From the NCBI GenBank assembly GCA_023701365.1, contig JAMPXD010000004.1:1-64000 (forward strand): a stretch of 64,000 nt of DNA, given 5' to 3'. The translations under genes were made by a program, and so were the position numbers. Origin of the DNA: Geobacteraceae bacterium. Its GTDB lineage: Bacteria > Desulfobacterota > Desulfuromonadia > Geobacterales > Geobacteraceae. Positions 7,660 to 44,925 of the stretch are shown here, one piece after another. How positions within the stretch are numbered: position 1 is the stretch's first letter; each line of letters starts with the position of its first letter. The notes under the pieces were generated by a model. That model saw only the letters and a program-made list of their open reading frames with translations, ran no database searches and was not told where the DNA came from.

Positions 7660-8087
7660 AATTCTGGGACGCTTCCGCCGTTATCCCTCTTTGCGTCGAC
7701 GAGCTCCATTCCAAGGCCATGCATGAGATCGCGCTGGCTGATGGCTCGCTGGCAGCGTGGTGGGGTACCGTTGTCGAGTGCCGGTCGGCATTCGCGCGCC
7801 TGCGGCGCGAGGGGGTTCTTTCCATTGACGAGGAGGATGAGCTCCGGTCGATGCTCGAGATGCTCTCGTCCGGCTGGACCGAGATCGAGCCGAGCGACGA
7901 GATCCGCGACATTGCCGGACGTCTCCTCCTCAACCACTCCCTCCGTGCTGCCGATTCGCTCCAACTGGCCGCCGCCATCATATGGTCGGCCAAATCGCCA
8001 ACGGGACACCGGTTCGTCTGTCTCGACCAGCGGCTTCGAGAAGCGGCGAGAAAGGAAGGGTTCAAGGTACTGCCTGAGACTATGTAA
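7656..8087 (+). CDS. PIN-domain ribonuclease toxin (VapC-like)
   Basis: This 143-residue PIN domain has the acidic metal-binding residues in order: Asp5 (WDAS), Glu41, Asp100 (AADSLQLA) and Asp124. Family members are Mg2+-dependent RNases that cut tRNA or rRNA when released from the antitoxin. It overlaps the antitoxin gene by ATGA. The length is normal and the active site intact, so the module looks functional. Confidence 0.9.
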   Translation: MKFWDASAVIPLCVDELHSKAMHEIALADGSLAAWWGTVVECRSAFARLRREGVLSIDEEDELRSMLEMLSSGWTEIEPSDEIRDIAGRLLLNHSLRAADSLQLAAAIIWSAKSPTGHRFVCLDQRLREAARKEGFKVLPETM

Positions 8088-27702: not shown

Positions 27703-27757
27703 ATGTTATTCAGGTCTGCAATTTAGCGTCATCAATTGAATTGCCATCATAATACCT

Positions 27758-27940
27758 TTAAACCTAGAAAAAGCATTTGCACACGGATAAAATCTGATTT
27801 GTACGGATTCTCACGGATTTAAGCCTTTGTGACCATTAACCCAAAAGGTTGTGGTATTAAAGCAGGATATGTCTTTGATTTATCGGTATTAATCCGCTTT
27901 TTCCGTGTTAATCCGTGTCCAATTGCCGTTTTTAGGTTAA
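27758..27940. mobile_element. about 180-bp MITE-like element between znuA and znuC
   Basis: The left end (TTAAACCTAGAAAAAGC... then CACACGGATAAAATC) is similar to the reverse complement of the right end (TTAACCTAAAAACGGC... then GACACGGATTAAC). Internal copies of CGGATT/AATCCG are frequent and no transposase is present. It resembles the element at 56725-56902. It ends 12 bp before the znuC start and next to its ribosome-binding site. Confidence 0.65.
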
Positions 27941-27952
27941 GCAGGAGTGCAG

Positions 27953-28720
27953 ATGGAAAACGACATCGTCTTAAGCAGCAAGGGGTTGTCGGCCGGCTAT
28001 GGCGACCGGGCCGTCCTCAGGGACGTCAGCATCGAGATCCGGCGCGGGGAGTTCTGGTTCCTCCTCGGCCCCAACGGGGTCGGCAAGACCACCTTCCTGA
28101 AGACCGTCCTGGCTGAACTGCGCCCCGTGACAGGGGAAATCTCCCTGCACGGGGAATTTGCCGGACGCGACGCCATCGGCTTTGTCCCGCAACGCTGCGA
28201 CATCAATCCGACACTCCCAACGACGGTCCGGGAGTTCGTCCTCCTCGGCCTCGTGGGTGTCAGGGCCGGCGCTGCCGAGCGGGATGAACGGCTTTCCTGG
28301 GCGCTGGACAAGGTCGCCCTCGGCGGGATGGCGGATAAGGACTACTGGTCCCTGTCGGGCGGCCAGAGGCAGCGGGCCCTGGTGGCGCGGGCGCTCGCCC
28401 GCAGACCGCGGCTCCTCATCGTGGACGAGCCGACCAGCGGCCTTGACCTCTCCGCCGGCTATGCCTTCCTGAAATCGCTGGTGCTGCTGAACCGGGCGGA
28501 ACGCCTTACCGTGCTTTTCGTTACCCATGATCTGGCCGTGGCGGCGCGCTACGCCAGCCACATCGCCCTGTTCCTCGATGGCCGGGTCGAGGCCGGCCCT
28601 GCCGCCGGGATGTTGAACGGCGAAAGCCTCGGCCGGGCCTACGGGATTCCCGTCGAGGTGTGCCGGGAGACCTCGGGGATCGTCCATATCAGTCTTGCCA
28701 TGAACGGGGAGGGGAGATGA
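27953..28720 (+). CDS. znuC: metal ABC transporter ATPase (ZnuC family)
   Basis: The protein has a Walker A GPNGVGKTT, a signature LSGGQRQR, Walker B LLIVDEP and a switch His (VTHD). The ATG at 27953 follows AGGAG at good spacing, giving 255 residues; a GTG at 27947 overlaps that site and is less likely. It overlaps the permease gene by ATGA. It powers the uptake system with the flanking binding protein and permease. Confidence 0.93.
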   Translation: MENDIVLSSKGLSAGYGDRAVLRDVSIEIRRGEFWFLLGPNGVGKTTFLKTVLAELRPVTGEISLHGEFAGRDAIGFVPQRCDINPTLPTTVREFVLLGLVGVRAGAAERDERLSWALDKVALGGMADKDYWSLSGGQRQRALVARALARRPRLLIVDEPTSGLDLSAGYAFLKSLVLLNRAERLTVLFVTHDLAVAARYASHIALFLDGRVEAGPAAGMLNGESLGRAYGIPVEVCRETSGIVHISLAMNGEGR

Positions 28721-29571
28721 TCGCCGACTTTTTCGCTTCCTGGGAACTGTTTCACCATGCCTATCTGGTCGGCTGGCTCCTTGCCTTTGTCCTTTCAGTC
28801 ACCGGCGTGATCGTCGTGGCCAGAAACCAGATATTCATCGGCGCGGCCGTATCACAGGCTTCAACCCTCGGGATCGCCCTTGCCCTGTGGCTTGGCGGCA
28901 TGTTTGCCGGTCACGGATTGCACTGGCTTGCCTCCGCCCCCTTCCTCTCCGGCATGGCGGTCATTTTCTCCGTGATGGGCGCCCTGATTACCGCGGGTGG
29001 CGACAAGGCGGGCAGGGAGAGCCGGGAAGCCGTTACCGGCTGGGTGTTCCTCTTCTCGGCAAGCGCCTCGATCCTGGTCGTTGCCCGCAGCCCCCACGGC
29101 GTGGAAGAGATCCACAAGATAGTGGCATCCAGCATCATCGGCGCCACCTTTGCCGACTTCGTCCTCTTCCTCGCGGCAGCGGTCGCGGCCGCGGGCCTTG
29201 CCGCGGTCACGCACAGGCGGCTGCTGCTGTTGATCATGGACCCCGCCATGGCGGCGGCCGTGGGGATGAGGACCAGGCTGTGGGGGGGCGCCGTCTCCGT
29301 CTGGCTCGGCCTGGTGGTCGGGCTCTCCATCCGCTCCTCCGGGATGCTCTACACCTTCGGCTGCCTGGTGCTCCCGGCGCTCGTCGCCAAGAACCTCTGC
29401 CGCGAGGTCCGGCCCATGTTCCTCGTCTCTCCCCTGGTCGGGGTGGGAGCGGGGGTGGCCGGTTTTGTCCTAGCCAACCATTACGATTACCCTCCCGGGC
29501 AGCTGACGGTGGTGCTGCTCTGCCTAGCCCTGTCGGCGGCGTGGCTCCGGCGGAGAGTGCGGACAAGTTAA
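28717..29571 (+). CDS. znuB: metal ABC transporter permease (ZnuB family)
   Basis: This 284-residue membrane protein of the ABC-3 family has about eight to nine helices. The frame is open upstream, but the ATG at 28717 overlaps the znuC stop and follows GGGAGGGGAG. It forms the inner-membrane channel of the zinc-type transporter. Its end is convergent with the DMT transporter gene. Confidence 0.92.
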   Translation: MIADFFASWELFHHAYLVGWLLAFVLSVTGVIVVARNQIFIGAAVSQASTLGIALALWLGGMFAGHGLHWLASAPFLSGMAVIFSVMGALITAGGDKAGRESREAVTGWVFLFSASASILVVARSPHGVEEIHKIVASSIIGATFADFVLFLAAAVAAAGLAAVTHRRLLLLIMDPAMAAAVGMRTRLWGGAVSVWLGLVVGLSIRSSGMLYTFGCLVLPALVAKNLCREVRPMFLVSPLVGVGAGVAGFVLANHYDYPPGQLTVVLLCLALSAAWLRRRVRTS

Positions 29572-29616: not shown

Positions 29617-30660
29617 TCAATGCCTGTGCCGGTGATGGATGTCGGGCCAGTGCACGTGTGAATGGGTTAGCGGTTCGTGGACGTGGAAATGATCGTGCGC
29701 CCCTTTGTCCCGTCCATCGTCGTGTTCATGGCGGTGATGCTCGTCGTGCTCATGCGGATGGGAATGGGCGAGCCGTTCGTGCCGGTGGAGGTGCCGGTGC
29801 ATTTCGCCGTAGAGGAAGAACATCCCGGATAGCATGACCAGCGCCGCCAGCCAGTACCCGCCGGGGGGGCGCTCGCCGAGGACGATCACCGAGAGGAGGG
29901 TGCCGATGAAAGGCCCGGAAGCGAACCAGGTGCTGGTCCTCGCCGAGCCGATTTCCCGCAGGGCGTGGATGAAGAGGACCAGGCTCGCCCCGAAGCTGAG
30001 CGCGCCGATCATGAGCGTTGCCGTGACCTGGAGCGGCGTGACCGGGCCACTGAACAGGATCAGGGAGAGGAGGACGTTGAATACCCCGGCGCTCAGCCCC
30101 TTCACGCAGGCCAGCAGCGAGGCCGGCAGCGACTCCAGCTCGCGGGTCAGGTTGTTGTCGATCCCCCAGAGGAGGCAGGCAACGAGCACGGAGAGCCCGG
30201 GGATCGACAGCCGCACCCCGGCGCTGCCGGTGAGCACGATGACCAGCGAGGCGCCGACGATGAGGACCTTGCCGATCCAGACCCGATAGCCGACATGCTC
30301 GTGAAAGATCAGCCAGGCGAGCAGGGTGGTCGCGACGGTTTCGAAATTGAGCAGCAGCGACACCTCGGTCGCGGTGCCGGAGCGGATGCCGAACGCCAGG
30401 AACAGAGGAGCGGCCACGCCGCCGGACACGATCGCGCCGGCCAAATATCCCCACTGCCGCCGCGACAGGGAACTCAGGATCACGTAAAACCGGGGCGTTT
30501 GCCGCAGGACTACCCCTGCCAGCCCCAGCCCCGAACCGAGATAGAGCAGCCCGGCGAGGAGTGCTGCCGGCATCTGGCCGACGATGGCCTTGCAGGCGAC
30601 CGGTGCCATGCCGAACAGGATTGCGGAGAGAATCGCCGCGTGCAGACCCTTTTTTTCCAT
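29617..30660 (-). CDS. EamA/DMT-family transporter with a histidine-rich C-terminal tail
   Basis: About ten transmembrane helices in two EamA repeats (residues 1-285) are followed by a ~60-residue tail with 23 His, mixed with Asp and Glu (HEHDEHHRHEHDD and similar). His tails of this kind bind Zn2+, Ni2+ or Co2+. DMT members with such tails often lie beside metal-regulated genes. Together with the convergent znu genes this suggests metal efflux or metal-gated transport. No strong ribosome-binding site precedes the ATG. Confidence 0.85.
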   Translation of the reverse strand: MEKKGLHAAILSAILFGMAPVACKAIVGQMPAALLAGLLYLGSGLGLAGVVLRQTPRFYVILSSLSRRQWGYLAGAIVSGGVAAPLFLAFGIRSGTATEVSLLLNFETVATTLLAWLIFHEHVGYRVWIGKVLIVGASLVIVLTGSAGVRLSIPGLSVLVACLLWGIDNNLTRELESLPASLLACVKGLSAGVFNVLLSLILFSGPVTPLQVTATLMIGALSFGASLVLFIHALREIGSARTSTWFASGPFIGTLLSVIVLGERPPGGYWLAALVMLSGMFFLYGEMHRHLHRHERLAHSHPHEHDEHHRHEHDDGRDKGAHDHFHVHEPLTHSHVHWPDIHHRHRH

Positions 30661-30726: not shown

Positions 30727-31722
30727 TCACCTTGGTGACACGCTCCCCCCCGCCTTGTCGATCATGCAGCCGTTCTCCAGGGAAAGCCGGTTCATGATGG
30801 CCCCGTCAAGACAAAACTCCATGCAGAGGCCACACCCGGTGCATCTCCTTGCGTCGAATGTTGGCCTCTGCTCCGGTTGCGATGTACCTTCGGGCTCGGC
30901 CAGGGCGGCCGTGGGGCAGGCTCGGACGCAGCCCATGCAGCCGCTGCATGCGCCGGAGAAGGTGACTTGCCGGTCGAAAGTCCGGGTCAGGGAGCGGGCC
31001 AGCTCCGGCGGCAGTGACTCCGCCGCGGAGTTGACCAGTCGTCGCCGCGCCGGCAAAGACTTGTCCAGGTAGGTAAGGGGGGATCGCTGCTCCTCCGCTC
31101 CGGAAATAACCGAGGCTATCCCCTGCAAGGCCAGCCTGCGAAAGGAGTTGAAAAAGCCGCGTCTGTCAAGGGTCTCCGGCCCGAAATCGATCCGTGCCGG
31201 ATCATCAACCAGGACGATCCGCCCGACGCCAGGCAGCGGCAATCCGTGCAGCAGTTCCAGGCGGCGGGCCAGCCCCTCGCGCATGGCGGAGGAAGGGCAG
31301 GCGGAGCATGGGGAGATATCCACCTGGATTGCCCCATCGCCCCGCAGGGCCAGGACCGCCAGATGCTCGACCGAGAGCATGCCGTGGCAGGGAATGCGGT
31401 GATGGGCGCCGCCGCCCTGCCGCTCGCATCCCAGGACAAAGGTCGCCGCGGAACGCCCGGCAAGGTTACCGAGGAGCCGGTCGAAATCCGCTCCAGCCTC
31501 CAGCGCGCCGGAAGGACAGGCGCTGGTGCAGCTGAGACAGCCGGCGCATCTGCCGTCATCCACGGCAAGGCCGTTTTCCAGGCTGATGGCGCCGGCCGGG
31601 CAGACGGCGCGGCAGCGGTCGCAGGAGCTCTCCGAAAAACGCATCCGGAGACAGCGTGACGGGTCGCGAACAGGGGCAGCGGCCGTTGCCGCCAGTTTTT
31701 CCAGGATGTGGCCGGTTACCAA
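30727..31722 (-). CDS. polyferredoxin of the molybdoenzyme locus
   Basis: This 331-residue protein has four ferredoxin-type Cys motifs: CDRCRAVCP and CAGCLSCTSACP near the N terminus, CSGCMGCVRACP and CTGCGLCMEFC near the C terminus. Other Cys in the middle (CSACPSS) may bind a further cluster. No signal peptide is present, so it is cytoplasmic, perhaps as an assembly factor or electron carrier. Its start overlaps the TorD-family gene by seven bases. It may help maturation of the molybdoenzyme. Confidence 0.85.
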   Translation of the reverse strand: MVTGHILEKLAATAAAPVRDPSRCLRMRFSESSCDRCRAVCPAGAISLENGLAVDDGRCAGCLSCTSACPSGALEAGADFDRLLGNLAGRSAATFVLGCERQGGGAHHRIPCHGMLSVEHLAVLALRGDGAIQVDISPCSACPSSAMREGLARRLELLHGLPLPGVGRIVLVDDPARIDFGPETLDRRGFFNSFRRLALQGIASVISGAEEQRSPLTYLDKSLPARRRLVNSAAESLPPELARSLTRTFDRQVTFSGACSGCMGCVRACPTAALAEPEGTSQPEQRPTFDARRCTGCGLCMEFCLDGAIMNRLSLENGCMIDKAGGSVSPR

Positions 31723-32378
31723 TCCGCCCCCTGTCGTGCCTCATCGCCGCCGGGAAGCCGGAGGTCGGCGGCAATCACCCCCTCCAGGCAATCGGCCAGG
31801 GCGGAGTAAAAAGCGGTTTTCGAGCCGTTGCGGATCTCTTCGCAGAAGGTAGCGCTCCAGCTGGAGAGGAAGGTCGCAAGAAACTCCCGCCGCCGCCACA
31901 CCCATGCGGCCACTTCGGCATAATCGCCGGCAGCAGCCGCAGCGATGGCGCGCTGGACCAGGTATGACATGAATTCCAGCTCCACCGCGATATGGTCCGG
32001 CACCTCGGCGAACTCCTCGTCCAGCGCCAGCCCCGATGCCAGATAGAAGGAGTGCACCGCCATGGTGGTCTCCCCCATGACCCGCTTTTCCGGCTCCAGA
32101 TGGACGGAACCGTAGGGAGGGGCCAGCAGCCTGGCCGGACCGACGAAAAGCGCAGCATAGTCGACGGTCAGCGTCTCCACCCCCTCGGCGGCGAACGAGC
32201 GCGCCATGGCGGGGGCCTTGTCCGCCTCCGCCGGGGCCACTCCCCGGAGAGCGGCCTCCAGATTGGCAAACAGTTCCTCCTCCGCCCATTCCGGCGCCGG
32301 CTGGTAGAAGCAGGCGGCGAGGAGCCGGTAGGCCACCTCCAGATCATGATTGAACTTCATGTTGCTCAGGGTCTTCAT
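31716..32378 (-). CDS. TorD/DmsD-family molybdoenzyme chaperone
   Basis: This 220-residue, mostly helical protein has the family signature around the YxxLFVGP motif (DYAALFVGPARLLAPPYGSVH) and the E-x-P-DH stretch (EVPDHIAVELEFM). Such chaperones bind the twin-arginine signal of the catalytic subunit and aid cofactor insertion. It follows the Fe-S subunit gene but is separated from it by a strong terminator-like hairpin. Confidence 0.9.
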   Translation of the reverse strand: MKTLSNMKFNHDLEVAYRLLAACFYQPAPEWAEEELFANLEAALRGVAPAEADKAPAMARSFAAEGVETLTVDYAALFVGPARLLAPPYGSVHLEPEKRVMGETTMAVHSFYLASGLALDEEFAEVPDHIAVELEFMSYLVQRAIAAAAAGDYAEVAAWVWRRREFLATFLSSWSATFCEEIRNGSKTAFYSALADCLEGVIAADLRLPGGDEARQGADW

Positions 32379-32472: not shown

Positions 32473-32508
32473 CACTCTACCACACTCCGTCTGCATCTGT
32501 CGATGCAG

Positions 32509-33279
32509 CTAGATTTTCTTCTCACCCCTGAAGCTTCTGATGTACGCCACATTCGGCCTGGTCTTCTTCTCCACCTTGAGGCGCATCGCCTTGTGCGCCT
32601 TCAGCAGCTTGGCGGGCTCGCTCGCGGCGTCGTTCAGGTCGCCGAAGATGCGGGCCTTGGCGGGACAGGCGACCACGCAGTTGGGAAGCTCGCCCTTCTT
32701 CACCCGGTGCTCGCAGAAGATGCATTTCTCGGTGAGCCCCTTGTTCCGGACGCTCCGGTAATCGGGGTGATCGTAGTGATGATGATGCGGCGGCAGGCCT
32801 CCCGCCTTCCCGGCGGTCTCGGCCCCCGACGTGGTGCAGCCGGGGATCAGCTCCGTGGTGTCCCGGTAAAAGGGATGGACCCCTTCCCTGGCGTCGCTGG
32901 CGCTGATGACGCTGTAGGCGGCCCCGTCCCTGGTCACATCGGTCGAGCTGTAGGGGCAGGCCTTCTGGCAGCGGCGGCAGCCAAGGCAGCGGTCGTCGTT
33001 GTGCATGGTGATCCCGTCGGCGGTCTTGAACATCGCCTTCGGGTTCACCGGGCAGGCCTTGACGCAGGGGGCGTCCGAACAGTGATTGCACAGCACCGGG
33101 ATGGCGGTGTAGCTCACCTTGGGGAATTTCCCCTCTTCCCGGTAGATGAAGTCGGCCCAGTTGAAGGTCTGGCCGTTGGCGCGGTTCTGGGTGTTGTTCT
33201 CGGTCTTGCAGGCCAGGGCGCAGGCGCCGCAGCCGACACACCTCTGCAGGTCTATGACCATTCCGTATTGCTTTGGCAT
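32509..33279 (-). CDS. molybdoenzyme Fe-S subunit with four [4Fe-4S] clusters (ArrB/DmsB-type)
   Basis: This 256-residue protein contains four Cys groups: CVGCGACALAC, CNHCSDAPCVKACP, CLGCRRCQKACP and CIFCEHRVKKGELPNCVVACP. No signal peptide is present; it would be exported with the Tat-dependent catalytic subunit. A His-rich loop (PPHHHHYDH) lies between the third and fourth groups. It is 15 bp downstream of the catalytic subunit gene. There is no NrfD-like membrane anchor, so electrons probably come from the c7 cytochrome or the quinol/cytochrome pool. Confidence 0.92.
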   Translation of the reverse strand: MPKQYGMVIDLQRCVGCGACALACKTENNTQNRANGQTFNWADFIYREEGKFPKVSYTAIPVLCNHCSDAPCVKACPVNPKAMFKTADGITMHNDDRCLGCRRCQKACPYSSTDVTRDGAAYSVISASDAREGVHPFYRDTTELIPGCTTSGAETAGKAGGLPPHHHHYDHPDYRSVRNKGLTEKCIFCEHRVKKGELPNCVVACPAKARIFGDLNDAASEPAKLLKAHKAMRLKVEKKTRPNVAYIRSFRGEKKI

Positions 33280-33294
33280 TTATATCCCTCCGTC

Positions 33295-35901
33295 CTAGAT
33301 TTTTTCGATCTTCACGCCGGTGAAGCCGCCGTTACGCGCGGTGGAGCCGCTGAGACGATCGTAGTCGTCCGGCATAAGTTCGTTATTGTTGCCGCCGCGC
33401 GGCAGGGCCTTGGCATAGTCCTTGGCCGCCACCTTGCCGTAGGCCCAGTGACCCTGGCCGAAGCACTTGGCTACGGTACCGGGGCGCACCCCCTCCCAGA
33501 GCTTGGCCTTGGCCACGATGGAGCCGGTGGTCGAAGTCAGGCGCACGGTGTCGCCGGTCTTGATCCCCAGCTTCTTGCCGTCGGCAGGGTTGATCTTCAC
33601 CACGTCGTCCCAGGCGTCATCACCCACGTCGACTTTCTTGAACTCCTGGTACCAGGTGGTGTTGGCGGAGCGCCCCTCGCGGTTGAGGCGCGATTTATAA
33701 TCAATGAAGGTGAATGGATATTCCTTTTCGCTGCCATGGCGCTTGGGCGACTCGTAATGCGGGACGAAAGCGAGCTCGCCCTGTGCCTCATAACCGCTGA
33801 CCTTGAGCACATCGTCGATAGTGGTCTTGTGTTTATCAGCGTGCATCTTGAGCGCTTTTTTCAGGGTTTCGCTGTAAAACTCGAATTTCTTGGTCTCGGT
33901 CTTGAAATGGCCCTCGAATTTCTTGGTCTCGGGATTCTCTTTGCCCCAGTTTTTCTTGTATTTGTAGGTCTCTGAGTTGTAGATCCCCTTCTTGCGGAAC
34001 TCGGCCCAACCGGAAATCTGGTCCCCCTTCATCTTCTCCTTGCCGTTCCAGACTTTCTGGCTGGTGATTTTTGCGGCAATTTCCTCAAACTCGGCGGCGT
34101 TGGTCGGCGTCTTTCCGGTCTCAGGGTCCTTGAATTCGGTAGCGAAGTAGTCGATGAGGTTAGCGAAGCCCCTGGCCTTTAATTTTTCGGCCAGCAGCCA
34201 GACGAACTCGGTCTCCTCGGACTTGACCTTCCAGAGCGGCTTTGCCACCGACTGCTGGATCGACATGTGGCCGTGCAGGTTTGCCATATTGGTTATGATG
34301 GAAAGCTTCTCCGTAGGGGCAAAGGTGGCCGGCAGGACGATGTCGGCGAACTGGCTCATCTCCGAGGCGTTGGTTGTCAGGTGGACGAAGAAGGGGACCT
34401 TGGCCATGGCCTTGTCCCAGCGCTCGGCGCCGGTGCAGGAGAAGTTGAAATTGCACCAGCTACCAATGAAGACCTTGACTGCGTCTGGGTTCTTCAGCAT
34501 GCCATTGGCAACGTTGTTGGTGACCACGCCTACTTTCAGGCTCTCCTTGACCGTACCGTCTTTTTCCTTAACTTTATCGATGCCCCCCAGAATTGCCGGC
34601 ATATCCTTGGCACCGCGGCCGTCGAGCTTTTTCTCCTTGCCGGATTTCTTGGCGATCTCGTCCACGTAATTGTCGAAACCAGGGAATTTTTCCGTCGGGG
34701 CGCTGGAACTCTGGAACACCCCTCCCTCGGTTTCGATGGAGCCAAGGATGCCGTTAAGGGCGTATACCGCCATGGAGGCATAGGTGCCGCGTGGATTCAT
34801 GGCCACACCTGGACCCATCCATACTGCGCAGGCGGAACCAGCTTTACCCATCGAACGGGCGGTTTTGATGATTTGGTCTTCGGGAATCAAGGTTTTCTTG
34901 GCGGCCCAGGCCGGGGTCTTGTCTTTCAGTTCCAGGTTCCACCATTTGACTACGCCATGGGTCTGTTTCTCCACAAAGGCAGCCTCGTCAACGCTTGCAC
35001 CAGCCTTGAAGAGATTTTTGCCATCCTTGAAGTCGCCGACGAACTCCTTGCTCCACATCCCTTCCGTCAGAAGGACATGAGCTATTGCGGCGGCCAGGGC
35101 ACCGTCCTCTCCCGGCTTTATCGGCAGCCAATCGTGGGCCTTGGCTACGGTAGTGCTCATACGTGGATCGACGGCGATGACCGTGCCGCGGTCCAGGATA
35201 TCGCTGAATTTGGCGATGGCGTTGGGTACCTGGCGGTTGGAAGAGAGGGGGTCGCAGCCCCAGACCACCAGACATTTGGTCTTGGCCAAATCATAATCAC
35301 GGTAGCCGAAGAATCCCTGGGTATAGCCAGACCCCATCTTCTCAGCTTCGGCGCAGATGGCGCTGTGAGAGTAACTGTGGGGGGAGCCGAAGATTTTGGC
35401 GACTGTACCGTAGGCGATGTCGGTGGAGGTTGGGGAATAACGCCCCCGCATGTACATGAACTTGTGCGGCTCATTGGCCTTGCGCAGCTCCATCATCCTG
35501 TCGGCGATGGTGTCGAGCGCCTCGTCCCAGGTGATCGGCACGAACTTGGGGTCAATACCGCGCCCCTTGGCGGGGTTGGTCCGCTTCATCGGCACCTTGA
35601 CCCGGTCGGGGTCGTAGGTCTGCTGGATCATCATGTGGCCGCGGGGACAGACGTAGCCGCCGTTCGCCTTGGAAAGCTGGTTGCCGCGCACCTTGGTGAT
35701 TCTGCCGTCCTGCACCAGGAACTCGGTGGGACACCAGGCGGTACACCCCTGGCAGGTCGACGGGACCCACTCGCCGGCGCTCCCCGCGGCTGCCTTTTCG
35801 GCGCCGCTCTGGGCGAAGGCGTTCAGCTTCGGCAGGCCAACCGTTGCCACCGCCCCGGTCGCAGCGGTAATCTTGAGAAAATCTCTCCGTTTGATTTTCA
35901 T
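33295..35901 (-). CDS. Tat-exported molybdopterin oxidoreductase, ArrA-like catalytic subunit
   Basis: This 868-residue protein starts with a twin-arginine signal (RRDFLK, residues 5-10). The [4Fe-4S] motif is Cys50-x2-Cys53-x3-Cys57-x27-Cys85. The likely Mo ligand is Cys183 (SHSAICAEAEK). Around it, Arg154-Tyr155, His179, Ser180, Lys188 and Tyr200 fall at the spacing I remember for substrate residues of arsenate respiratory reductase ArrA. The region SGYTQGFFGYRDYD resembles the ArrA YTEGxWGY stretch. Arsenic genes lie nearby. It could instead be a polysulfide/thiosulfate reductase or another member of the group. Confidence 0.85.
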   Translation of the reverse strand: MKIKRRDFLKITAATGAVATVGLPKLNAFAQSGAEKAAAGSAGEWVPSTCQGCTAWCPTEFLVQDGRITKVRGNQLSKANGGYVCPRGHMMIQQTYDPDRVKVPMKRTNPAKGRGIDPKFVPITWDEALDTIADRMMELRKANEPHKFMYMRGRYSPTSTDIAYGTVAKIFGSPHSYSHSAICAEAEKMGSGYTQGFFGYRDYDLAKTKCLVVWGCDPLSSNRQVPNAIAKFSDILDRGTVIAVDPRMSTTVAKAHDWLPIKPGEDGALAAAIAHVLLTEGMWSKEFVGDFKDGKNLFKAGASVDEAAFVEKQTHGVVKWWNLELKDKTPAWAAKKTLIPEDQIIKTARSMGKAGSACAVWMGPGVAMNPRGTYASMAVYALNGILGSIETEGGVFQSSSAPTEKFPGFDNYVDEIAKKSGKEKKLDGRGAKDMPAILGGIDKVKEKDGTVKESLKVGVVTNNVANGMLKNPDAVKVFIGSWCNFNFSCTGAERWDKAMAKVPFFVHLTTNASEMSQFADIVLPATFAPTEKLSIITNMANLHGHMSIQQSVAKPLWKVKSEETEFVWLLAEKLKARGFANLIDYFATEFKDPETGKTPTNAAEFEEIAAKITSQKVWNGKEKMKGDQISGWAEFRKKGIYNSETYKYKKNWGKENPETKKFEGHFKTETKKFEFYSETLKKALKMHADKHKTTIDDVLKVSGYEAQGELAFVPHYESPKRHGSEKEYPFTFIDYKSRLNREGRSANTTWYQEFKKVDVGDDAWDDVVKINPADGKKLGIKTGDTVRLTSTTGSIVAKAKLWEGVRPGTVAKCFGQGHWAYGKVAAKDYAKALPRGGNNNELMPDDYDRLSGSTARNGGFTGVKIEKI

Positions 35902-35920
35902 TCCTTTCCTCCCTGGCGTC

Positions 35921-36226
35921 TTATTTCTTATGACAGTTTGAACAGTTCTCTTTTACGCTGAACGCCTTCTTGCCGTCGTGGCAGGCGCCGCACGATTTCC
36001 CCTTCTGCATCTCCTTCATGGAAACCTTCTTGTGCTGCCTGCTGCTGGTGTATAGGTCAGCGTGGCAGGCCCGGCAGTCAAGGCTCGCCCCCTCCACGTG
36101 CGCCTCGTGGCTGAATGCCACGTCGCCCCCCTTGTTCTTCATGGTGACGTCGCCGCCGCCGACCACTGCCAGCGCAGGTGACGCAGCCGCAAGAAAAACT
36201 GCTGCTGCCAATACGTTCATTCGCAT
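35921..36226 (-). CDS. periplasmic triheme c7-type cytochrome
   Basis: This 101-residue protein has a signal peptide (about 1-20) and three CxxCH motifs (CRACH, CGACH, CSNCH) with extra His (FSHEAH, QHKK) as distal ligands, as in cytochrome c7. It is the first gene of the molybdoenzyme cluster, 19 bp before the catalytic subunit, and probably delivers electrons to it in the periplasm. Confidence 0.92.
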   Translation of the reverse strand: MRMNVLAAAVFLAAASPALAVVGGGDVTMKNKGGDVAFSHEAHVEGASLDCRACHADLYTSSRQHKKVSMKEMQKGKSCGACHDGKKAFSVKENCSNCHKK

Positions 36227-36366
36227 ATACCCTCCCTTTCGTTTAGTAAGGCTATACCATCCCTGGGCAACTGTTAAATCCTACCAAGGAAAGACGCGGC
36301 GTCAAATGAGCCCGAAACCGTTACCGCCGGGTAGCAGTATCCAGCGAAAGAACCGGACCCGGCGGG

Positions 36367-37722
36367 CTAATCCGGCTTCTTCAGCTTCCCCCAGAGGCCC
36401 TTTCGGGAGAGGCCGAGAATCCGCGCGGACAGCGATTTGTTCCCCTTTGCGCCCTGGACCACTTTCTCGATGTAGCGCTGCTCGAACTCCGCCAGGGCGT
36501 CTTTCAGCGGCTTGCCTACGGTATACTCTTCAAATTGCTTGCCAAGGTAGGGATTGGCCAGGGTCATTTCAGGGGGGAGATGGGAATCGAGGATCGTTTT
36601 CCCCGCATGGAAGATGGTGATTCTTTCGATGATGTTCTTCAACTCACGGACGTTGCCCGGATACTGGTAGCGTGAGAACGTCTCCAGGGCCTCCCGGGAG
36701 AAGCGGATCTTGCACGCCCCGGACCTGCTGTTGAATTTCTTGAGGAAGCAGGCGACGAGCAGCGGGATGTCCTCCCGGCGCTCCCGAAGGGGGGGGACCA
36801 CGACAGGGACGACGTTGATCCGGTAGAAAAGGTCTTCCCGGAAGAGCTTATCCTCGACCATCTGCTCCAGGTCGCGGCTGGTCGCACAGACGAGGCGGAA
36901 GTCGAGCGGCCGCGGGGTCGTGCCGCCGACGCGGCGGATTTTCCTTTCCTCCAGGACGCGCAGCAGTTTCCCCTGCATCGGCAGCGGCAACTCCCCGATC
37001 TCGTCGAGGAAGAGGGTCCCGCCGCCTGCGGCCTCCAGGTGCCCGTTTCTCGTCCTCTTGGCATCGGTGTAGGCGCCTCTTTCAACCCCGAAGAACTCGC
37101 TCTCCATGAGCGGCTCGGGAATCGCCGCGCAGTTGACCGATACAAACGGCCCCCCCCGCCGTGGGCTCAAGGCATGCAGCGCCTCGGCAAGGAGCTCCTT
37201 ACCGGTTCCGGTTTCCCCGAGAAGGAGCACCGTCGACGCCGCGGGGGCCACCGCATGGATCTTCTTCTTGGTCTCCCTGATGGCGGGGCTGCGGCCGATG
37301 ACCCTTTCCAACCCCCTTTCGTCGCCAGCCGAAACGGCGACCTGCTTTTCCAGGAGCGAAAATTCCAGGAGGCGCTCCAGCTTCAGGAACAGGACGTCAA
37401 CCGGAAACGGCTTGGTCACGAAGTCGAACGCCCCCTTCTTCATCGCCTCCACGGCGGTTTCGATGGTAGCGTTCGCCGTCATCACCAGCGCCATGCATTG
37501 AGGCTCCCGGGCCAGGACCTGCTGCAGCACCTGGAGGCCGTCCGCATCGGGGAGCCTCACATCCTGCAGCAGGATATCGAAGCTCTCCTCCGCCACCGCC
37601 TCCAGGGCGGCGACACCGGTCGCCACCAGGCGCGGCGCGTATCCTTTCCGCTCCAGGGCTTCTTCGAGGGATTCTCCCAGGAGCGGGTCGTCCTCCACGA
37701 TCAGAATCTTTGCGTTTTTCAC
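36367..37722 (-). CDS. sigma-54 response regulator of the molybdoenzyme locus
   Basis: The protein has a receiver domain (phosphoacceptor in ILLQDVRLPDADG), an AAA+ domain with Walker A LGETGTGKE, a variant sigma-54 loop GAYTDA, and a C-terminal Fis-like helix (GNKSLSARILGLSRKGLWGKL). It has 451 residues. Its start overlaps the kinase gene by four bases. It lies between the kinase and the c7-cytochrome/molybdoenzyme genes on the same strand, so those genes are the likely target. I found no clean -24/-12 promoter in the 140-bp gap. Confidence 0.93.
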   Translation of the reverse strand: MKNAKILIVEDDPLLGESLEEALERKGYAPRLVATGVAALEAVAEESFDILLQDVRLPDADGLQVLQQVLAREPQCMALVMTANATIETAVEAMKKGAFDFVTKPFPVDVLFLKLERLLEFSLLEKQVAVSAGDERGLERVIGRSPAIRETKKKIHAVAPAASTVLLLGETGTGKELLAEALHALSPRRGGPFVSVNCAAIPEPLMESEFFGVERGAYTDAKRTRNGHLEAAGGGTLFLDEIGELPLPMQGKLLRVLEERKIRRVGGTTPRPLDFRLVCATSRDLEQMVEDKLFREDLFYRINVVPVVVPPLRERREDIPLLVACFLKKFNSRSGACKIRFSREALETFSRYQYPGNVRELKNIIERITIFHAGKTILDSHLPPEMTLANPYLGKQFEEYTVGKPLKDALAEFEQRYIEKVVQGAKGNKSLSARILGLSRKGLWGKLKKPD

Positions 37723-39191
37723 TTCTTCCCCTTCTCCTGCAGCGGGATACGGACGATGAGGGCAGTGCCCCCGTCACGGCTGTCGAGCACGAGCGAACCC
37801 TCGTGCATTTCCACGATGCTCTTGCTGATGGCCAACCCCATCCCGCTCCCCTTGCCGGGAGCCTTTGTCGTGTAGAAGATCTCGAAGATCTTCCGGCGCT
37901 CTTCCTCCGGAATTCCCGGCCCCTGATCATGGACGGCGATGCAGTAGAAGCCGTCGCCGGGAAAGGCCCGGATCGTGACCGTGGCCCCGGGAGGGGAGGC
38001 ATCCGCCGCATTGAAGAGCAGGTTCAGGATGACCTGGTGCAGCTTTCCCTTGTCGATGTTCAGGATGATCGGCGGCGAACAGTCGTCGGCGGTGACAAGC
38101 ACCACGTTTCTCTTTTGCAGCGCCAGCTTGGCAAAGACCGCCGCTTCATGAAAAAAGAGGTCGCTCGGCACCCCCTGCAACGAAATGTCTCCGGCCCGGC
38201 TGAAATCCGAGAGGTCGCGGACAATGGTCTCGATCCGCGCCAGTCCCTTCCTGAGAAGATCGGTGTACTTCAGCAGCTCGGCCGGATTGGACTCCAGGTT
38301 ATGGATGCAGGTGGTCATCCCGGAGAGGGGGTTGTTCACCTCGTGCGCCACCCCGGCCACGAGTTTCCCCACGGTTACCAGCTTCTCCGTCTGGACAATG
38401 TGCGCCAGCGCCATCCGGCGCTCTTCTTCGCTGCGGTTCAGCCTCCGGAGCATCTCCAGGAAACTCTCCTGCAGCAGGCCGATCTCGTCGCTCCTCTCCC
38501 GGGGGATATCGGCCCGGAGCGTCTCCGGGTCGATAGCTCCCATGATGACGGCAAGCCTCTGCAGGGGACGGGCGAGGTTGGCCCCAACCACATAGAAGAT
38601 GGCCGTGCCGAAGATAAAGAGGATGACCGAGAATGTGACGATCCGCTGCGAGAGCTCGTGGAGTTGTACCGCAAGGGGGGCGGTCGAAACACCGACCCGC
38701 AGCGCCCCCCAGGTCTTTCCGTAGATGCGCAGGGGAACCGCCATCTCGAGAACCGCCCGGTCGGCTCCTGTTCCGGGCGAGATTTCGCTGCGGTAGTTCC
38801 CGGAGGAGAGAACCGCTACGGTCAGCGGGTCGTCGTAGATCTTTCCGTATTCGGTGTAGCGGTTGTGCGCCAGGACCCTTCCGTGGTCGTCGCTGACGAA
38901 GGCGTAGGTCGGCTGGAATTCGGCGCTCCCCATGATTTCTTCGACAAAGTTGTCGAGGAGCCCCCCCTCGACTATCACCCCCATCTCCTCGTAAAGAAGC
39001 GCGTTGATGATCGGGGTGGCCAGCGAGGTCATCATCGCCTTCCCTTCCCCCTCCAGCCGTTCGAAGAGGAGGCGCTTCTCGTTCTGCCAGACCCAGGTTC
39101 CCCACAGGGCGGAAGAAATCGCCACGATCAGCGCCGCCAGGAGGGCAAAACGGGTCTTGATGCTGAAGCGCACCGGTCTCATCGGTGGCAC
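37719..39191 (-). CDS. sensor histidine kinase with large periplasmic domain
   Basis: This 490-residue protein has two transmembrane helices (about 14-34 and 185-205) enclosing a ~150-residue periplasmic domain, HAMP, an H-box (AGVAHEVNNPLSGM) and an HATPase domain (NLLFNAADAS, DQGPGIP, GSGMGLA). It overlaps both the PhnD-type gene upstream (13 bp) and the regulator downstream (4 bp). In AioXSR/ArxXSR systems the periplasmic binding protein hands the arsenite signal to such a kinase; the same may apply here. Confidence 0.92.
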   Translation of the reverse strand: MPPMRPVRFSIKTRFALLAALIVAISSALWGTWVWQNEKRLLFERLEGEGKAMMTSLATPIINALLYEEMGVIVEGGLLDNFVEEIMGSAEFQPTYAFVSDDHGRVLAHNRYTEYGKIYDDPLTVAVLSSGNYRSEISPGTGADRAVLEMAVPLRIYGKTWGALRVGVSTAPLAVQLHELSQRIVTFSVILFIFGTAIFYVVGANLARPLQRLAVIMGAIDPETLRADIPRERSDEIGLLQESFLEMLRRLNRSEEERRMALAHIVQTEKLVTVGKLVAGVAHEVNNPLSGMTTCIHNLESNPAELLKYTDLLRKGLARIETIVRDLSDFSRAGDISLQGVPSDLFFHEAAVFAKLALQKRNVVLVTADDCSPPIILNIDKGKLHQVILNLLFNAADASPPGATVTIRAFPGDGFYCIAVHDQGPGIPEEERRKIFEIFYTTKAPGKGSGMGLAISKSIVEMHEGSLVLDSRDGGTALIVRIPLQEKGKK

Positions 39192-40081
39192 CCCGTGCCG
39201 CAGCCGCTCGGGATCCCCCGGATCAGGCGGAAGATGTCCTTGTAATCGGCGATTTCGGCCGGGGCAAAGCCGTTTTTGAACTCGTCATCCCAGTTCTTCA
39301 TGATCTCCCGGTGCCCCGGATTGTTGCGGTCGAGCCTGAGCAGGGCGTCGGAGAGCGCCCGCACCACCTGCTTCGGCGCCGTTTTCGTGACCACGATGGG
39401 AACGGAGGGGATGGCGCCGGACCATGCCAGGACGCGCAGGCCGTAGGAGCGGTATTTCTCGGCCACCACGTCCTTCACCGCTCCCGCGTCGTACTGCCCC
39501 TTGAGGATCGCCTTGGCTACGGCATCATGATGCTTGAGGTTCGTGAACGATTTCAGCTCCTGCAAGCGGATGCCGCTGTTCCAGAGTAGATAGCGGGGGA
39601 TGAGGTTCCCTGAGGTTGAATGGGGTGAGCCGAACGCCATGGTCCTGCCGCGCAGATCGGCAAGGGAGCTGAGCGGGGAGTCTTCCCGGACGATGATCGC
39701 GCTCCGGTAATAAGGCTTTCCCTCCCGGTTCAGCGGCTTGAGAATGGGGACCGCTGCGCACTGCACGTTTGCCTCGGCAAAGGTGACGTCCCCGAGGGAA
39801 CTCACCTGGGTCACCCCATCCGTGAGAAACCGCACCGCCTCCGGGTAGTCGCGGCTGATCTTCAGCTCGAATTTATAGGGGGTGTTCGCGGTCAGGTAGT
39901 CCATGATCGGCTGGTAGCGCTTGTACATGATGATCGGGTTGTAGCGGGGGATGACCCCGAAGCGGACGACCGGCTTGTCGGCTGAAAGTGACTGTGATTG
40001 CGGCAGGAAAATGAACCCGAGGAGGGTGACGAGAAGGAAAATTATTCTGCGCTGCATATGGGGTTGCCTTTCCATGAGCAC
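39179..40081 (-). CDS. PhnD-family periplasmic binding protein, AioX/ArxX-like
   Basis: This protein of up to 300 residues has a signal peptide and the phosphate/phosphonate-binding (PhnD/TAXI-like) fold. In arsenite-sensing AioX proteins of this family a Cys near residue 108 binds As(III). Here the only Cys in the fold is Cys108 (NVQCAAV, counted from ATG 40081). The C-terminal tail adds CGTGCH. An internal ATG at 40057 is also possible. It overlaps the sensor kinase gene and is divergent from arsR. A phosphonate-transport role is unlikely, as no ABC genes are present. Confidence 0.85.
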   Translation of the reverse strand: MLMERQPHMQRRIIFLLVTLLGFIFLPQSQSLSADKPVVRFGVIPRYNPIIMYKRYQPIMDYLTANTPYKFELKISRDYPEAVRFLTDGVTQVSSLGDVTFAEANVQCAAVPILKPLNREGKPYYRSAIIVREDSPLSSLADLRGRTMAFGSPHSTSGNLIPRYLLWNSGIRLQELKSFTNLKHHDAVAKAILKGQYDAGAVKDVVAEKYRSYGLRVLAWSGAIPSVPIVVTKTAPKQVVRALSDALLRLDRNNPGHREIMKNWDDEFKNGFAPAEIADYKDIFRLIRGIPSGCGTGCHR

Positions 40082-40135: not shown

Positions 40136-40474
40136 ATGAAAACTACCTCCCGTTTGTTCAAAGCCCTGGCGGACGAGACCCGCCTGCGCATCCTTTCCCT
40201 CCTCATGGAAGGGGAACTCTGCGTCTGCAACCTGATGGAGGTCCTGCGGCTCCCCCAGTCGACCGTATCGCGCCATCTTGCCTATCTGAAGAACGCCGGC
40301 TGGGTGGATGACCGGCGCGAAGGTGTCTGGATGTACTACTCCATAAACCGCAAGGGGAGCGATTTCCATGACGGCATGTTCCATTTCTTGAAGCGGCACC
40401 TGGCTTCACTGCCCGTCTCCGCCGCGGACCGGAAAAGCCTGGCGGCCTTTGAGGAAAACAACAAGTGCGCCTGA
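40136..40474 (+). CDS. arsR: ArsR arsenic-responsive repressor
   Basis: This 112-residue winged-helix repressor has the As(III)-binding motif ELCVCNL (Cys29, Cys31) in the recognition region and STVSRHLAYL as DNA-reading helix. It should leave its operator on binding arsenite. The frame is open upstream, but the protein homology begins at ATG 40136. No Shine-Dalgarno is seen and the -10 box is so close that the mRNA may be leaderless. It heads arsC-acr3. Confidence 0.95.
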   Translation: MKTTSRLFKALADETRLRILSLLMEGELCVCNLMEVLRLPQSTVSRHLAYLKNAGWVDDRREGVWMYYSINRKGSDFHDGMFHFLKRHLASLPVSAADRKSLAAFEENNKCA

Positions 40475-40529: not shown

Positions 40530-40943
40530 GTGAAGAAAAAAGTGCTGTTCCTCTGCACCCACAACTCCTGCCGTTCCCAGATGGCGGAGGGGATCGTCAA
40601 CCACTACCTGGGCGACCGGCTGCAGGCCTTCTCCGCCGGGACCGAGGCGACCTCCGTCAATCCGCGGGCGATCGCGGTGATGCAGGAAATCGGCATCGAC
40701 ATCTCCGGCCACCGCTCCAAGACCCTGGACGAGTTCAAGGAGGAGAGCTTCGATTACGTCATCACCCTCTGCGGCGACGCCAAGGAGAAGTGCCCCCTCT
40801 TCTTCGGCGGGGTGGAGCGGATGCACCTCGGCTTTCACGATCCATCCGGGGCCTCCGGCACCGATCAGGAAATCATGGCGGAATTCCGCAGGGTCCGGGA
40901 CGAGATCAGGCACAGGCTGCTGGAGTTTTTCAGGAACGCGTAG
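40530..40943 (+). CDS. arsC: arsenate reductase, low-molecular-weight phosphatase type
   Basis: This 137-residue protein has the phosphatase loop CX5R (Cys9-THNSC-Arg15) and the redox Cys pair Cys81/Cys88 (LCGDAKEKC) of thioredoxin-coupled ArsC enzymes such as those of Gram-positives. It reduces As(V) to As(III), which is then exported by Acr3. AAAGGAAGG precedes the ATG. The stop codon TAG is part of the GTAGGGG palindromic repeat that follows. Confidence 0.95.
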   Translation: MKKKVLFLCTHNSCRSQMAEGIVNHYLGDRLQAFSAGTEATSVNPRAIAVMQEIGIDISGHRSKTLDEFKEESFDYVITLCGDAKEKCPLFFGGVERMHLGFHDPSGASGTDQEIMAEFRRVRDEIRHRLLEFFRNA

Positions 40944-41025: not shown

Positions 41026-42078
41026 ATGTCTGAAGGCATCTCAAGAAAACTCTCTTTCCTCGACCGCTGGCTCACCTTCTGGATCTTCGCCGCCATGGCG
41101 CTGGGGGTCGGCCTCGGCTGGTTCATCCCCGGCGTCGAGGGGTTCATCAACCGCTTCCAGGTGGGGACCACCAACATCCCCATCGCCGTTGGCCTGATCC
41201 TGATGATGTACCCCCCCTTCGCCAAGGTCAAGTACGAGGAGATGCCCGAGGTGTTCCGCAACAAGAAGATCCTGGGGCTTTCGCTGGTGCAGAACTGGCT
41301 GATCGGGCCGGTGCTGATGTTCATTCTGGCCATCATCTTTCTCCCCGACAAGCCGGAGTACCTTGTGGGGCTGATCATGATAGGGCTGGCCCGCTGCATC
41401 GCCATGGTGATCGTCTGGAACGAGCTGGCCAAGGGGAACACCGAGTACGCCGCCGGCCTGGTCGCCTTCAACAGCATCTTCCAGGTCCTGTTCTACAGCG
41501 TCTACGCCTGGTTCTTCATCACGGTGCTGCCGCCGCTGTTCGGCCTCTCCGGGAGCGTGGTCGATGTCAGCATCCGCCAGATCGCCGAAAGCGTCTTCAT
41601 CTACCTCGGCATCCCCTGCATCGCCGGGGCGCTCACCCGGCTGATCGGCGTGAAGGCCATGGGGGTGGAGCGCTACCACCGGGAGGTGGTGCCGCGGATC
41701 GGCCCGATCACCCTGATCGCGCTGCTGTTCACCATCGTCGTCATGTTCAGCCTCAAGGGGAACCTGATCGTCCAGCTCCCCCTGGACGTGGTCCGGATCG
41801 CCATCCCGATGCTGATCTACTTCATCGTCATGTTCCTGGTCTCGTTCTGGATGGGAAAACGGCTGGGGGCCGACTATTCCAAGACCACGACGCTCGCCTT
41901 CACCGCCGCCAGCAACAACTTCGAGCTCGCCATCGCCGTGGCGGTGGCGGTGTTCGGCCTCAACTCCGGGGCCGCCTTCGCCGCGGTAATCGGCCCGCTG
42001 GTGGAGGTGCCGGTGATGATCGGCCTGGTGAACGTGGCGTTCTGGTTCCAGCGCCGCTACTTCGTGGCCGCCGCGTAG
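41026..42078 (+). CDS. acr3: Acr3-type arsenite efflux permease
   Basis: This 350-residue protein has ten transmembrane helices. It carries the family-conserved Cys in the fourth helix (GLARCIAMV) and the motif ...[12 protein letters not shown]. It exports arsenite using the proton gradient. GGAGG precedes the ATG. It is the third gene of the arsR-arsC-acr3 detoxification operon. Confidence 0.95.
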
Positions 42079-42244: not shown

Positions 42245-42847
42245 ATGCCGGAAAATCTTGACCATGACATAACCGGCGTGATCCTGGTCGGCGGCAAGAG
42301 CCGCCGGATGGGACGGGACAAGGCGTTTCTGGAAGTTGCCGGCAAGACGCTCTTCGAGAGGGTGCTGGAGCTGTTCCGGGAGAGTTTCGCCCGGGTCGTG
42401 CTGGTGGGGGACCGTGCGGAGCGTTTTAGCGGCTACGGCCTCCCGGTTGTGCCGGACGTTTACCCCGGCAGCTCGCTGGGTGGGCTCTATACCGGGCTCC
42501 GGCACGCGGCGACGGAGTACGTCTTCGTTTCCTCCTGTGACCTCCCCTTCCCGAGCGCGGCGGTGCTCCGCCACCTCTGCTCCCTGAGGAACGGTTTCGA
42601 CGCGGTGGTGCCATGCACGACGCACGGATATGAGCCGCTCTTCGCGCTCTACGCGAAAAGCTGTCTCGGGCCGATCAGGGAGCTCCTGGAAAGCGGTGAC
42701 TGCTGCGCCTACGCGTATTACCCGCAGGTCCGGGTCAGGTATGTAAACCAACAGGAACTTGCCCAATTCGACCGGGACGGCAGGGCTTTTCTGAACGTCA
42801 ACACCCCGGAGGATTTTGCAGAAATAGGAGGAGAGCCATGGCGGTAA
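42245..42847 (+). CDS. mobA: molybdenum cofactor guanylyltransferase
   Basis: This 200-residue protein has the nucleotide-binding signature LVGGKSRRMGRDKA and the metal/GTP motif SSCDLPF. It attaches GMP to Mo-molybdopterin to give the guanine dinucleotide cofactor used by DMSO-reductase-family enzymes, such as the one in this window. It overlaps mobB by ten bases. Confidence 0.95.
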   Translation: MPENLDHDITGVILVGGKSRRMGRDKAFLEVAGKTLFERVLELFRESFARVVLVGDRAERFSGYGLPVVPDVYPGSSLGGLYTGLRHAATEYVFVSSCDLPFPSAAVLRHLCSLRNGFDAVVPCTTHGYEPLFALYAKSCLGPIRELLESGDCCAYAYYPQVRVRYVNQQELAQFDRDGRAFLNVNTPEDFAEIGGEPWR

Positions 42848-43341
42848 AGGTGATTTCATTCGTGGCAAAGTCGGGCACCGGCAAGACGACCCTGCTGGAA
42901 AAGGTCATCGCCCGCCTGAAGGAGCGGGGCTACCGGGTGGGGGTGGTCAAGCACGACGCTCACCGCTTCGACATCGACCACCCGGGGAAGGACAGCCACC
43001 GGCTGACCGCCGCCGGGGCCGATACCATGCTGATCTCCTCGCCGGAGAAGCTGGCCATGGTGAAGCAGCACGCCTCCCCTCCCCCCGTCGAGGAGCTGCT
43101 GGCGACCTACTTCGCGGACGTGGATATCGTCCTGACCGAGGGGTTCAAGAAGAGCGCCATGCCGAAGCTCGAGCTGCACCGCCGGGAAAGGAGCGCGACG
43201 CTTCTCTGCCGGGGGGAGGCGCACGACCCGACCCTGGTGGCGGTGGCCAGCGACGAGCCGCTGGAACTGGACGTGCCGGTGCTCGACCTGAACGACGCCG
43301 GAGAAGTCGCCGACTTCATCGAGGCGAGGTTCCTGAAATGA
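42838..43341 (+). CDS. mobB: molybdopterin-guanine dinucleotide biosynthesis adaptor protein
   Basis: This 167-residue P-loop protein has Walker A SFVAKSGTGKTTL and a family-typical VVKHDAHRFDIDHPGKDSHR stretch. It binds GTP and assists MobA. GGAGGAGAG precedes the ATG, within mobA. It overlaps the following ModE-like gene by ATGA. Confidence 0.95.
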   Translation: MAVKVISFVAKSGTGKTTLLEKVIARLKERGYRVGVVKHDAHRFDIDHPGKDSHRLTAAGADTMLISSPEKLAMVKQHASPPPVEELLATYFADVDIVLTEGFKKSAMPKLELHRRERSATLLCRGEAHDPTLVAVASDEPLELDVPVLDLNDAGEVADFIEARFLK

Positions 43342-43716: not shown

Positions 43717-44925
43717 ATGGTCAGCATCGAAGAAGCGCAACGGACCATCCTGGGACAGATCACCCCGCTGGAGACGGAGAAGGTATCCGTGTTCCAGGGG
43801 CTGAACCGGGTAACTCCGGAGGACCACATCGCCCCGTGGGACATCCCGGCGGCCGACAACTCCGCCATGGACGGCTATGCCTTCTCCCATGCCGCGCTCA
43901 GCGGCGGCCGGCTCCGGGTGACCGGCTTCCTCCCGGCGGGAGAGGCGCGCACCGTCCCGGTGCCGGCCGGCGAGGCGATCAGGATCATGACCGGGGCGCC
44001 GGTCCCGCCCGGCTGCGACACGGTGGTCCCCATCGAGGATGTCGCGGAGGAGGGCGAATGGATCAGCCTCCCCGCGGCGGTCACAGCGGGCGCGCACGTG
44101 CGCAACCGAGGTGAGGACATCCGCCGCGGCAACGTGGTGATCCCCGCCGGCTCACTCCTCAGGCCCCAGGAGATCGGCATGCTGTCGGCCATGGGGAGCA
44201 CGTCGCTGGCCGTTTACCGGCGCGCCCGGGTTGCGATCCTCTCCACCGGCGACGAGCTCCTGGAGCCCGGCTCGACACCGGCGCCGGGGAAGATCATCAA
44301 CAGCAACAGCTACAGCCTGGCCGCCCAGGTGCTGGATGCCGGCGGGGACCCGGTGCTCCTGGGGATCGCCCCGGACACCCTGGCCGCCACCTGCGGCAAG
44401 ATCCAGGCCGGCCTGAACGCCGATATCCTGGTCATCACCGGCGGCGTCTCGGTGGGGGACCGGGACTTCGTCAAGGCGGCGATCGAAGAGCTCGGCGGCA
44501 GCGTCACCTTCTGGAAGGTCAACATGAAACCGGGGAAGCCCCTGGCGTTCGCCATGCTGGAGGGAAAACCGGTCTTCGCCCTGCCGGGCAACCCGGTGGC
44601 CGCCATGGTGTCGTTCGAGCTGTTCGTCCGCCCCTCGCTCCTCAAGGCGATGGGGCACAAGCGGGTTTTCCGGCCGCTGGTCAGGGCGGCCTTGCAGGAG
44701 CCGGCGGCCAACGATGGGAAAAGGCCCCACTTGGTCCGGGGGATCGTCTCGGTGCAAGATGACAGCTATAAGGTATCGACCACAGGGGATCAGAGTTCCG
44801 GACGGCTCTCGTCGCTGATCCAGGGGAACGGCCTGATCCGCCTGGCGCCCGGGGCGGTGCATGCCGCGGGGGACGAGGTGGAGGTCCTGCTGCTGGACCG
44901 GGGCTTCGAGATGGGAGAGGCTTGA
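43717..44925 (+). CDS. moeA: molybdopterin molybdenumtransferase
   Basis: This 402-residue protein has MoeA domains in order (N-terminal ITPLETEKVSV..., DNSAMDGYAF, the MPT-binding GGVSVGDRDF, ALPGNPVAAMV, and the C-terminal domain). It inserts molybdate into adenylylated molybdopterin. GAGGAAGGAGG lies before the ATG. It is the last gene of the mobA-mobB-modE-like-moeA operon and supplies cofactor for the adjacent molybdoenzyme. Confidence 0.95.
   Translation: MVSIEEAQRTILGQITPLETEKVSVFQGLNRVTPEDHIAPWDIPAADNSAMDGYAFSHAALSGGRLRVTGFLPAGEARTVPVPAGEAIRIMTGAPVPPGCDTVVPIEDVAEEGEWISLPAAVTAGAHVRNRGEDIRRGNVVIPAGSLLRPQEIGMLSAMGSTSLAVYRRARVAILSTGDELLEPGSTPAPGKIINSNSYSLAAQVLDAGGDPVLLGIAPDTLAATCGKIQAGLNADILVITGGVSVGDRDFVKAAIEELGGSVTFWKVNMKPGKPLAFAMLEGKPVFALPGNPVAAMVSFELFVRPSLLKAMGHKRVFRPLVRAALQEPAANDGKRPHLVRGIVSVQDDSYKVSTTGDQSSGRLSSLIQGNGLIRLAPGAVHAAGDEVEVLLLDRGFEMGEA

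Follow-up and report, generated by a model that had tools for sequence, protein, structure and literature searches.

A Geobacteraceae gene very probably encoding a Geobacter-type respiratory arsenate reductase, and the variable cytochrome genes beside its relatives

The gene at 33295..35901 on the minus strand of the window (the whole 64,000-nucleotide stretch analysed here, from contig JAMPXD010000004.1 of a Geobacteraceae bacterium) is very probably the arrA gene in an operon (arrA-arrB-arrD-arrE) for a Geobacter-type respiratory arsenate reductase, in a bacterium from the class that contains Geobacter. Its predicted product, the catalytic Mo-bisPGD subunit, has 868 aa (the coordinates include the stop codon) with a Tat signal and a [4Fe-4S] motif (PF10518, PF04879), and the gene for ArrB adjoins it. 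The enzyme itself is not new: this ArrA is of the Geobacter type, a known kind, and its arr operon is typical. A sequence-only reading had proposed either an arsenate reductase or an enzyme for a related oxyanion; the first proposal is upheld by sequence, motif, tree, predicted fold and neighbouring genes, whereas the second gained no positive support. Two plus-strand open reading frames (32503-33975 and 34267-35961) were considered as genes and rejected as antisense frames in G+C-rich DNA over the arrA region.

Among proteins in the PDB, the closest relative is the ArrA of Shewanella (893 bits over the whole chain, 51% identity), followed by PsrA at 137 bits, and the best NCBIfam model is that of ArrA (NF041714, 1008 bits), followed by PhsA at 269 bits. 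An AlphaFold2 model of the window ArrA, built with 33 rows of proteins encoded in the window and at the loci (pLDDT 84.9, pTM 0.87), matched ArrA best in predicted fold upon superposition, a result that does not speak against the sequence-only reading. The first of the re-aligned PDB chains was 6cz7_C, the Shewanella ArrA (Z 58.0, rmsd 2.1, 795 residues, 48% identity), and the next structural match was PsrA (2vpw; Z 35.0, rmsd 3.0, 677 residues). The window protein therefore resembles the ArrA of Shewanella sp. ANA-3 (6cz7) in sequence, in six pocket and ligand residues and, as modelled, in fold; it differs in lying on another branch of the ArrA clade and in its NF041714 score (1008 against 1706 bits).

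A closer counterpart is found in Geobacter sp. OR-1, a cultured bacterium that respires arsenate (PMC4319506). The OR-1 ArrA (locus L044, NZ_BAZF01000005.1) is 80% identical to the window ArrA and is the sole ArrA of its genome, in which the second match to the window protein reaches just 118 bits. The two loci share the same pocket, the same clade, the order arrA-arrB-TorD-4Fe-4S protein and divergent ars genes. According to a passage of PMC11283718 that cites Tsuchiya 2019, arrAB flanked by arrDE, encoding a TorD-like chaperone and a 4Fe-4S protein, is the OR-1 arrangement.

On the minus strand of the window, the genes run in the order binding protein, kinase, regulator, c7 cytochrome, arrA, arrB, TorD, 4Fe-4S protein and EamA transporter. 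The 4Fe-4S electron-transfer subunit encoded by arrB (32509..33279, 256 aa) has the ArrB model NF041715 as its best NCBIfam match (241 bits, cut-off 450), arrD (31716..32378, 220 aa) encodes a TorD/DmsD-type chaperone (PF02613), and arrE (30727..31722), found in the same place in OR-1, encodes a 4Fe-4S protein of 331 aa with N- and C-terminal ferredoxin-like regions. Among the best 80 of 255 contig loci, 78 have arrB and 69 have a relative of TorD, the missing cases including short contigs. The EamA-family transporter (29617-30660, minus strand) has a long histidine-rich C-terminal tail and lies near a ZnuA-type metal ABC transporter (26635-29571). Diverging from the arr operon, on the plus strand, are genes for an arsR-type metalloregulator (40136..40474; NF033788, 100 bits), the thioredoxin-type detoxifying arsenate reductase arsC (40530..40943; TIGR02691, 155 bits, cut-off 174) and the arsenite efflux transporter acr3 (41026..42078; TIGR00832, 454 bits, above cut-off). 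These are followed by molybdenum-cofactor genes, namely a mobA-type guanylyltransferase gene (42245..42847), mobB (42838..43341; PF03205) and moeA (43717..44925), with a short LysR-type helix-turn-helix gene on the same strand between mobB and moeA.

Could another oxyanion, such as antimonate, selenate, thiosulfate or polysulfide, be the main substrate? A substrate is not readable from sequence, and our tree is one without antimonate reductases. Nevertheless, we consider this very improbable, given how close the window protein is to the ArrA of OR-1, an arsenate respirer with no second ArrA, the arsR-arsC-acr3 genes adjoining the arr operon, and the far greater distance of PsrA and PhsA by bits and, for PsrA, by predicted fold. 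In addition, according to PMC10100899, ArxA/ArrA have no other known physiological function.

The active-site residues were those that the sequence-only reading had listed. The cysteines of the Fe-S motif C-x2-C-x3-C-x27-C stand at 50, 53, 57 and 85 of the translation, R154, H179, S180, C183, K188 and Y200 all read as claimed, and in the alignment with PDB 6cz7 each of these six is identical to its counterpart in ANA-3 ArrA. In the Shewanella ArrA structure, His, Ser, Lys, Tyr and Arg residues near the Mo cysteine reportedly bind arsenate. The Arg precedes the Mo cysteine by 29 residues in the window ArrA but by 28 in ANA-3, a difference caused by a single inserted residue. The stretch YTQGFFGY is present in the window ArrA as had been noted, but ANA-3 has YLDGNWGY, and YTEGxWGY, with which the stretch had been compared, occurs in 3 of the 107 homologue rows that have RGRY and the Mo cysteine. 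Our alignment comprised 121 distinct homologues after frames with a stop, proteins shorter than 600 aa and three loci (L001, L147 and L004) had been dropped and 27 duplicates merged. The full pocket set was present in 108 of the 121, whereas five distant paralogues encoded in this genome and in others (L002, L003, L123, L124 and L125) all lacked it, and it is therefore not due to chance. A literature search on the pocket residues found nothing.

Some relatives depart from this pattern. Five ArrA-like proteins of approximately 760-800 aa (L151, L152, L153, L155 and L156) have the His, Ser and Mo-ligand Cys replaced by N, P/S and G, and four of their five genomes (G656, G785, G878 and G937) also encode a true ArrA. 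At another locus (L141, in genome G857 of the phylum), an in-frame TAA stop lies within the ArrA reading frame.

The related enzyme family of ArxA, an anaerobic arsenite oxidase working in the opposite direction, has most of the pocket residues in common with the window ArrA. The window ArrA has RGRY at positions 152-155 (RGRYS, not XGRGWG), and passages of PMC6549141 and PMC11283718 give (R/K)GRY as the mark of ArrA and XGRGWG as that of ArxA. GRY at 153-155 together with the Mo cysteine was found in 107 of the 121 distinct homologues, and GRGW in four rows (L128, L129, L130 and L149). One of these four ArxA-type rows carries the full pocket set and the other three differ by Ser to Ala alone; thus, the set marks ArrA and ArxA jointly, and RGRY is the better discriminator. 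For the tree, we removed four further loci (L102, L148, L072 and L003) and reduced the remainder, by thinning at 85% identity, to 53 rows, which include neither an antimonate reductase nor a TtrA/SrdA-type arsenate reductase. In this quick maximum-likelihood tree, with SH-aLRT support only and with long branches flagged, chiefly at the outgroup, all 41 RGRY rows, including the Shewanella and OR-1 ArrA, form one clade (support 100), and the ArxA-type rows form a separate clade (support 100). The window ArrA falls in an 8-row clade with OR-1 ArrA (support 100), that is, inside the ArrA clade and not in another characterised one.

An ArxA-type arsenite oxidase is therefore scarcely credible as the identity of the window protein, being contradicted by motif and tree, although the shared pocket residues would fit it and a binding protein-kinase-regulator module is also described beside arx genes in a part of PMC6549141. 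The window protein is only approximately 31-37% identical to ArxA in the aligned parts. Moreover, arrB is followed by a TorD-type gene, and no NrfD match was found among the operon proteins scanned, whereas the order arxABC, with ArxC being of the NrfD type, is given as conserved in all genomes of PMC6549141. A PsrA or PhsA identity is rejected by bit scores (PsrA 137 against ArrA 893; PhsA 269 against ArrA 1008), tree and motif.

Within the clade that contains the window ArrA, the ArrA of a Nitrospirota contig (L043) is nested among Geobacter-type rows, a placement that suggests either transfer or mis-binning. Contigs labelled Thermodesulfovibrionales or Nitrospirae (L043, L045, L047, L053 and L055) encode ArrA proteins 77-81% identical to the window ArrA.

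One result was counted against the identification as ArrA: the window protein falls below the curated cut-off of NF041714 (1008 against 1600 bits). However, OR-1 ArrA scores 1010 bits and five other relatives 979-1130 bits, compared with 1706 bits for Shewanella ArrA. Because the enzyme of OR-1 and its relatives also lie below the cut-off, failing it is a trait of the whole group and a limit of the model. At 1600 bits, NF041714 leaves out the Geobacter-type ArrA, including that of OR-1. Neither the 395 genomes searched in the phylum nor the 369 in the class to which Propionivibrio dicarboxylicus belongs (locus L111, genome G279) contained a protein above the cut-off, while 22 and five of them, respectively, had a match at E 1e-100. 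The Geobacter-type group is widespread: of the 277 genomes in the window genome's class, 50 encode a relative that reaches E 1e-150 or better, and public genome contigs yielded 255 stretches encoding relatives, of which the best 80 were retained. A plasmid collection gave no match at E 1e-100. The description of the enzyme as divergent and unassigned is thus apt relative to Shewanella ArrA and the strict NCBI model, but not in view of its identity to OR-1 ArrA and its frequency in the class.

The gene directly upstream of arrA (35921..36226, minus strand) encodes a triheme c7-type cytochrome of 101 aa (PF14522; TIGR04257 above cut-off), which may help the electron supply of Arr. We surveyed 23 loci with at least 75% identity, 22 of which had upstream sequence. 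The gene before arrA encoded an intact triheme cytochrome in 10 of the 22, a ten-CxxCH protein of 501-542 aa in four and neither in eight, a locus with one 2-CxxCH frame (L055) being counted as neither. Ten-CxxCH proteins of 491-542 aa are encoded upstream of arrA in L051, L054, L056, L057 and L060; the start of that in L056 resembles what we take to be a NapC-type membrane-anchored cytochrome. OR-1 differs from the window in retaining no more than a broken piece of the triheme cytochrome gene (approximately 7890-7990 of its locus), in which only the last 32 residues match and a stop is internal. This remnant weakens the candidacy of the triheme c7 as a required electron donor; since the gene has decayed in a proven arsenate respirer, c7 cannot be essential for Arr generally. 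We tentatively suggest, with rather less than even confidence, that the Geobacter-type Arr is an ArrA branch with an exchangeable donor cytochrome, which may be a triheme c7 or a decaheme NapC-like protein, or be absent or decayed. This apparent swap, with its putative donation to ArrB, is the sole point here that is novel, and only mildly so; a literature search on a cytochrome beside arrA found nothing.

Further upstream on the minus strand lie genes for an NtrC/AtoC-type, arrR-like response regulator (36367..37722), an arrS-like sensor histidine kinase with an sCache domain (37719..39191) and a PhnD/PtxB/ArrX-type periplasmic binding protein (39179..40081; PF12974), which is arrX-like by position. 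Such modules are described, in a part of PMC5908839, as accompanying aio, arx and arr clusters. In OR-1, the 8 kb upstream of arrA showed no module of this kind. The binding protein scores higher with PtxB (85 bits) than with ArrX (59 bits) and has a Gly at the position of the ArrX cysteine in the CTYSF stretch; its apparent likeness to PtxB over ArrX and the missing cysteine were counted against our explanation. Also counted against it was the finding that the -24/-12 (sigma-54) pattern, with up to two mismatches, has no match in 36227-36366, before the cytochrome gene. The whole window gave 52 matches, against 61 expected by chance, and a sigma-54 promoter ahead of the operon was rejected. 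The NtrC-type regulator of the window reads GAYTDA, whereas five related loci encode homologues with GAYTGA, the motif that contacts sigma-54.

How might this system work? The analysis shows that the protein belongs to the ArrA clade, has the conserved motifs, matches ArrA in predicted fold and stands in an operon of the expected order; arsenate as the substrate, the direction of the reaction, the electron route and the regulation are what we infer. The TorD-like chaperone would fold ArrA with its molybdenum cofactor, provided by MobA, MobB and MoeA, and the Tat system would then carry ArrA together with ArrB to the periplasm, where ArrA would work. Electrons would pass from the iron-sulfur clusters of ArrB to the single [4Fe-4S] cluster of ArrA and on to the Mo bound by Cys183, where arsenate, held by Arg154, His179, Ser180, Lys188 and Tyr200, would undergo a two-electron reduction to arsenite. 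The binding protein, kinase and regulator encoded upstream may sense the oxyanion and switch the operon, and ArsR, ArsC and ACR3 would handle the arsenite.

Arsenate respiration frees arsenic from sediment into groundwater. Because the NF041714 cut-off misses the Geobacter type, even the ArrA of a bacterium proven to respire arsenate, surveys based on the NCBI cut-off would undercount these genes. If the exchange of donor cytochromes is real, one catalytic unit would have become connected to different sources of electrons.
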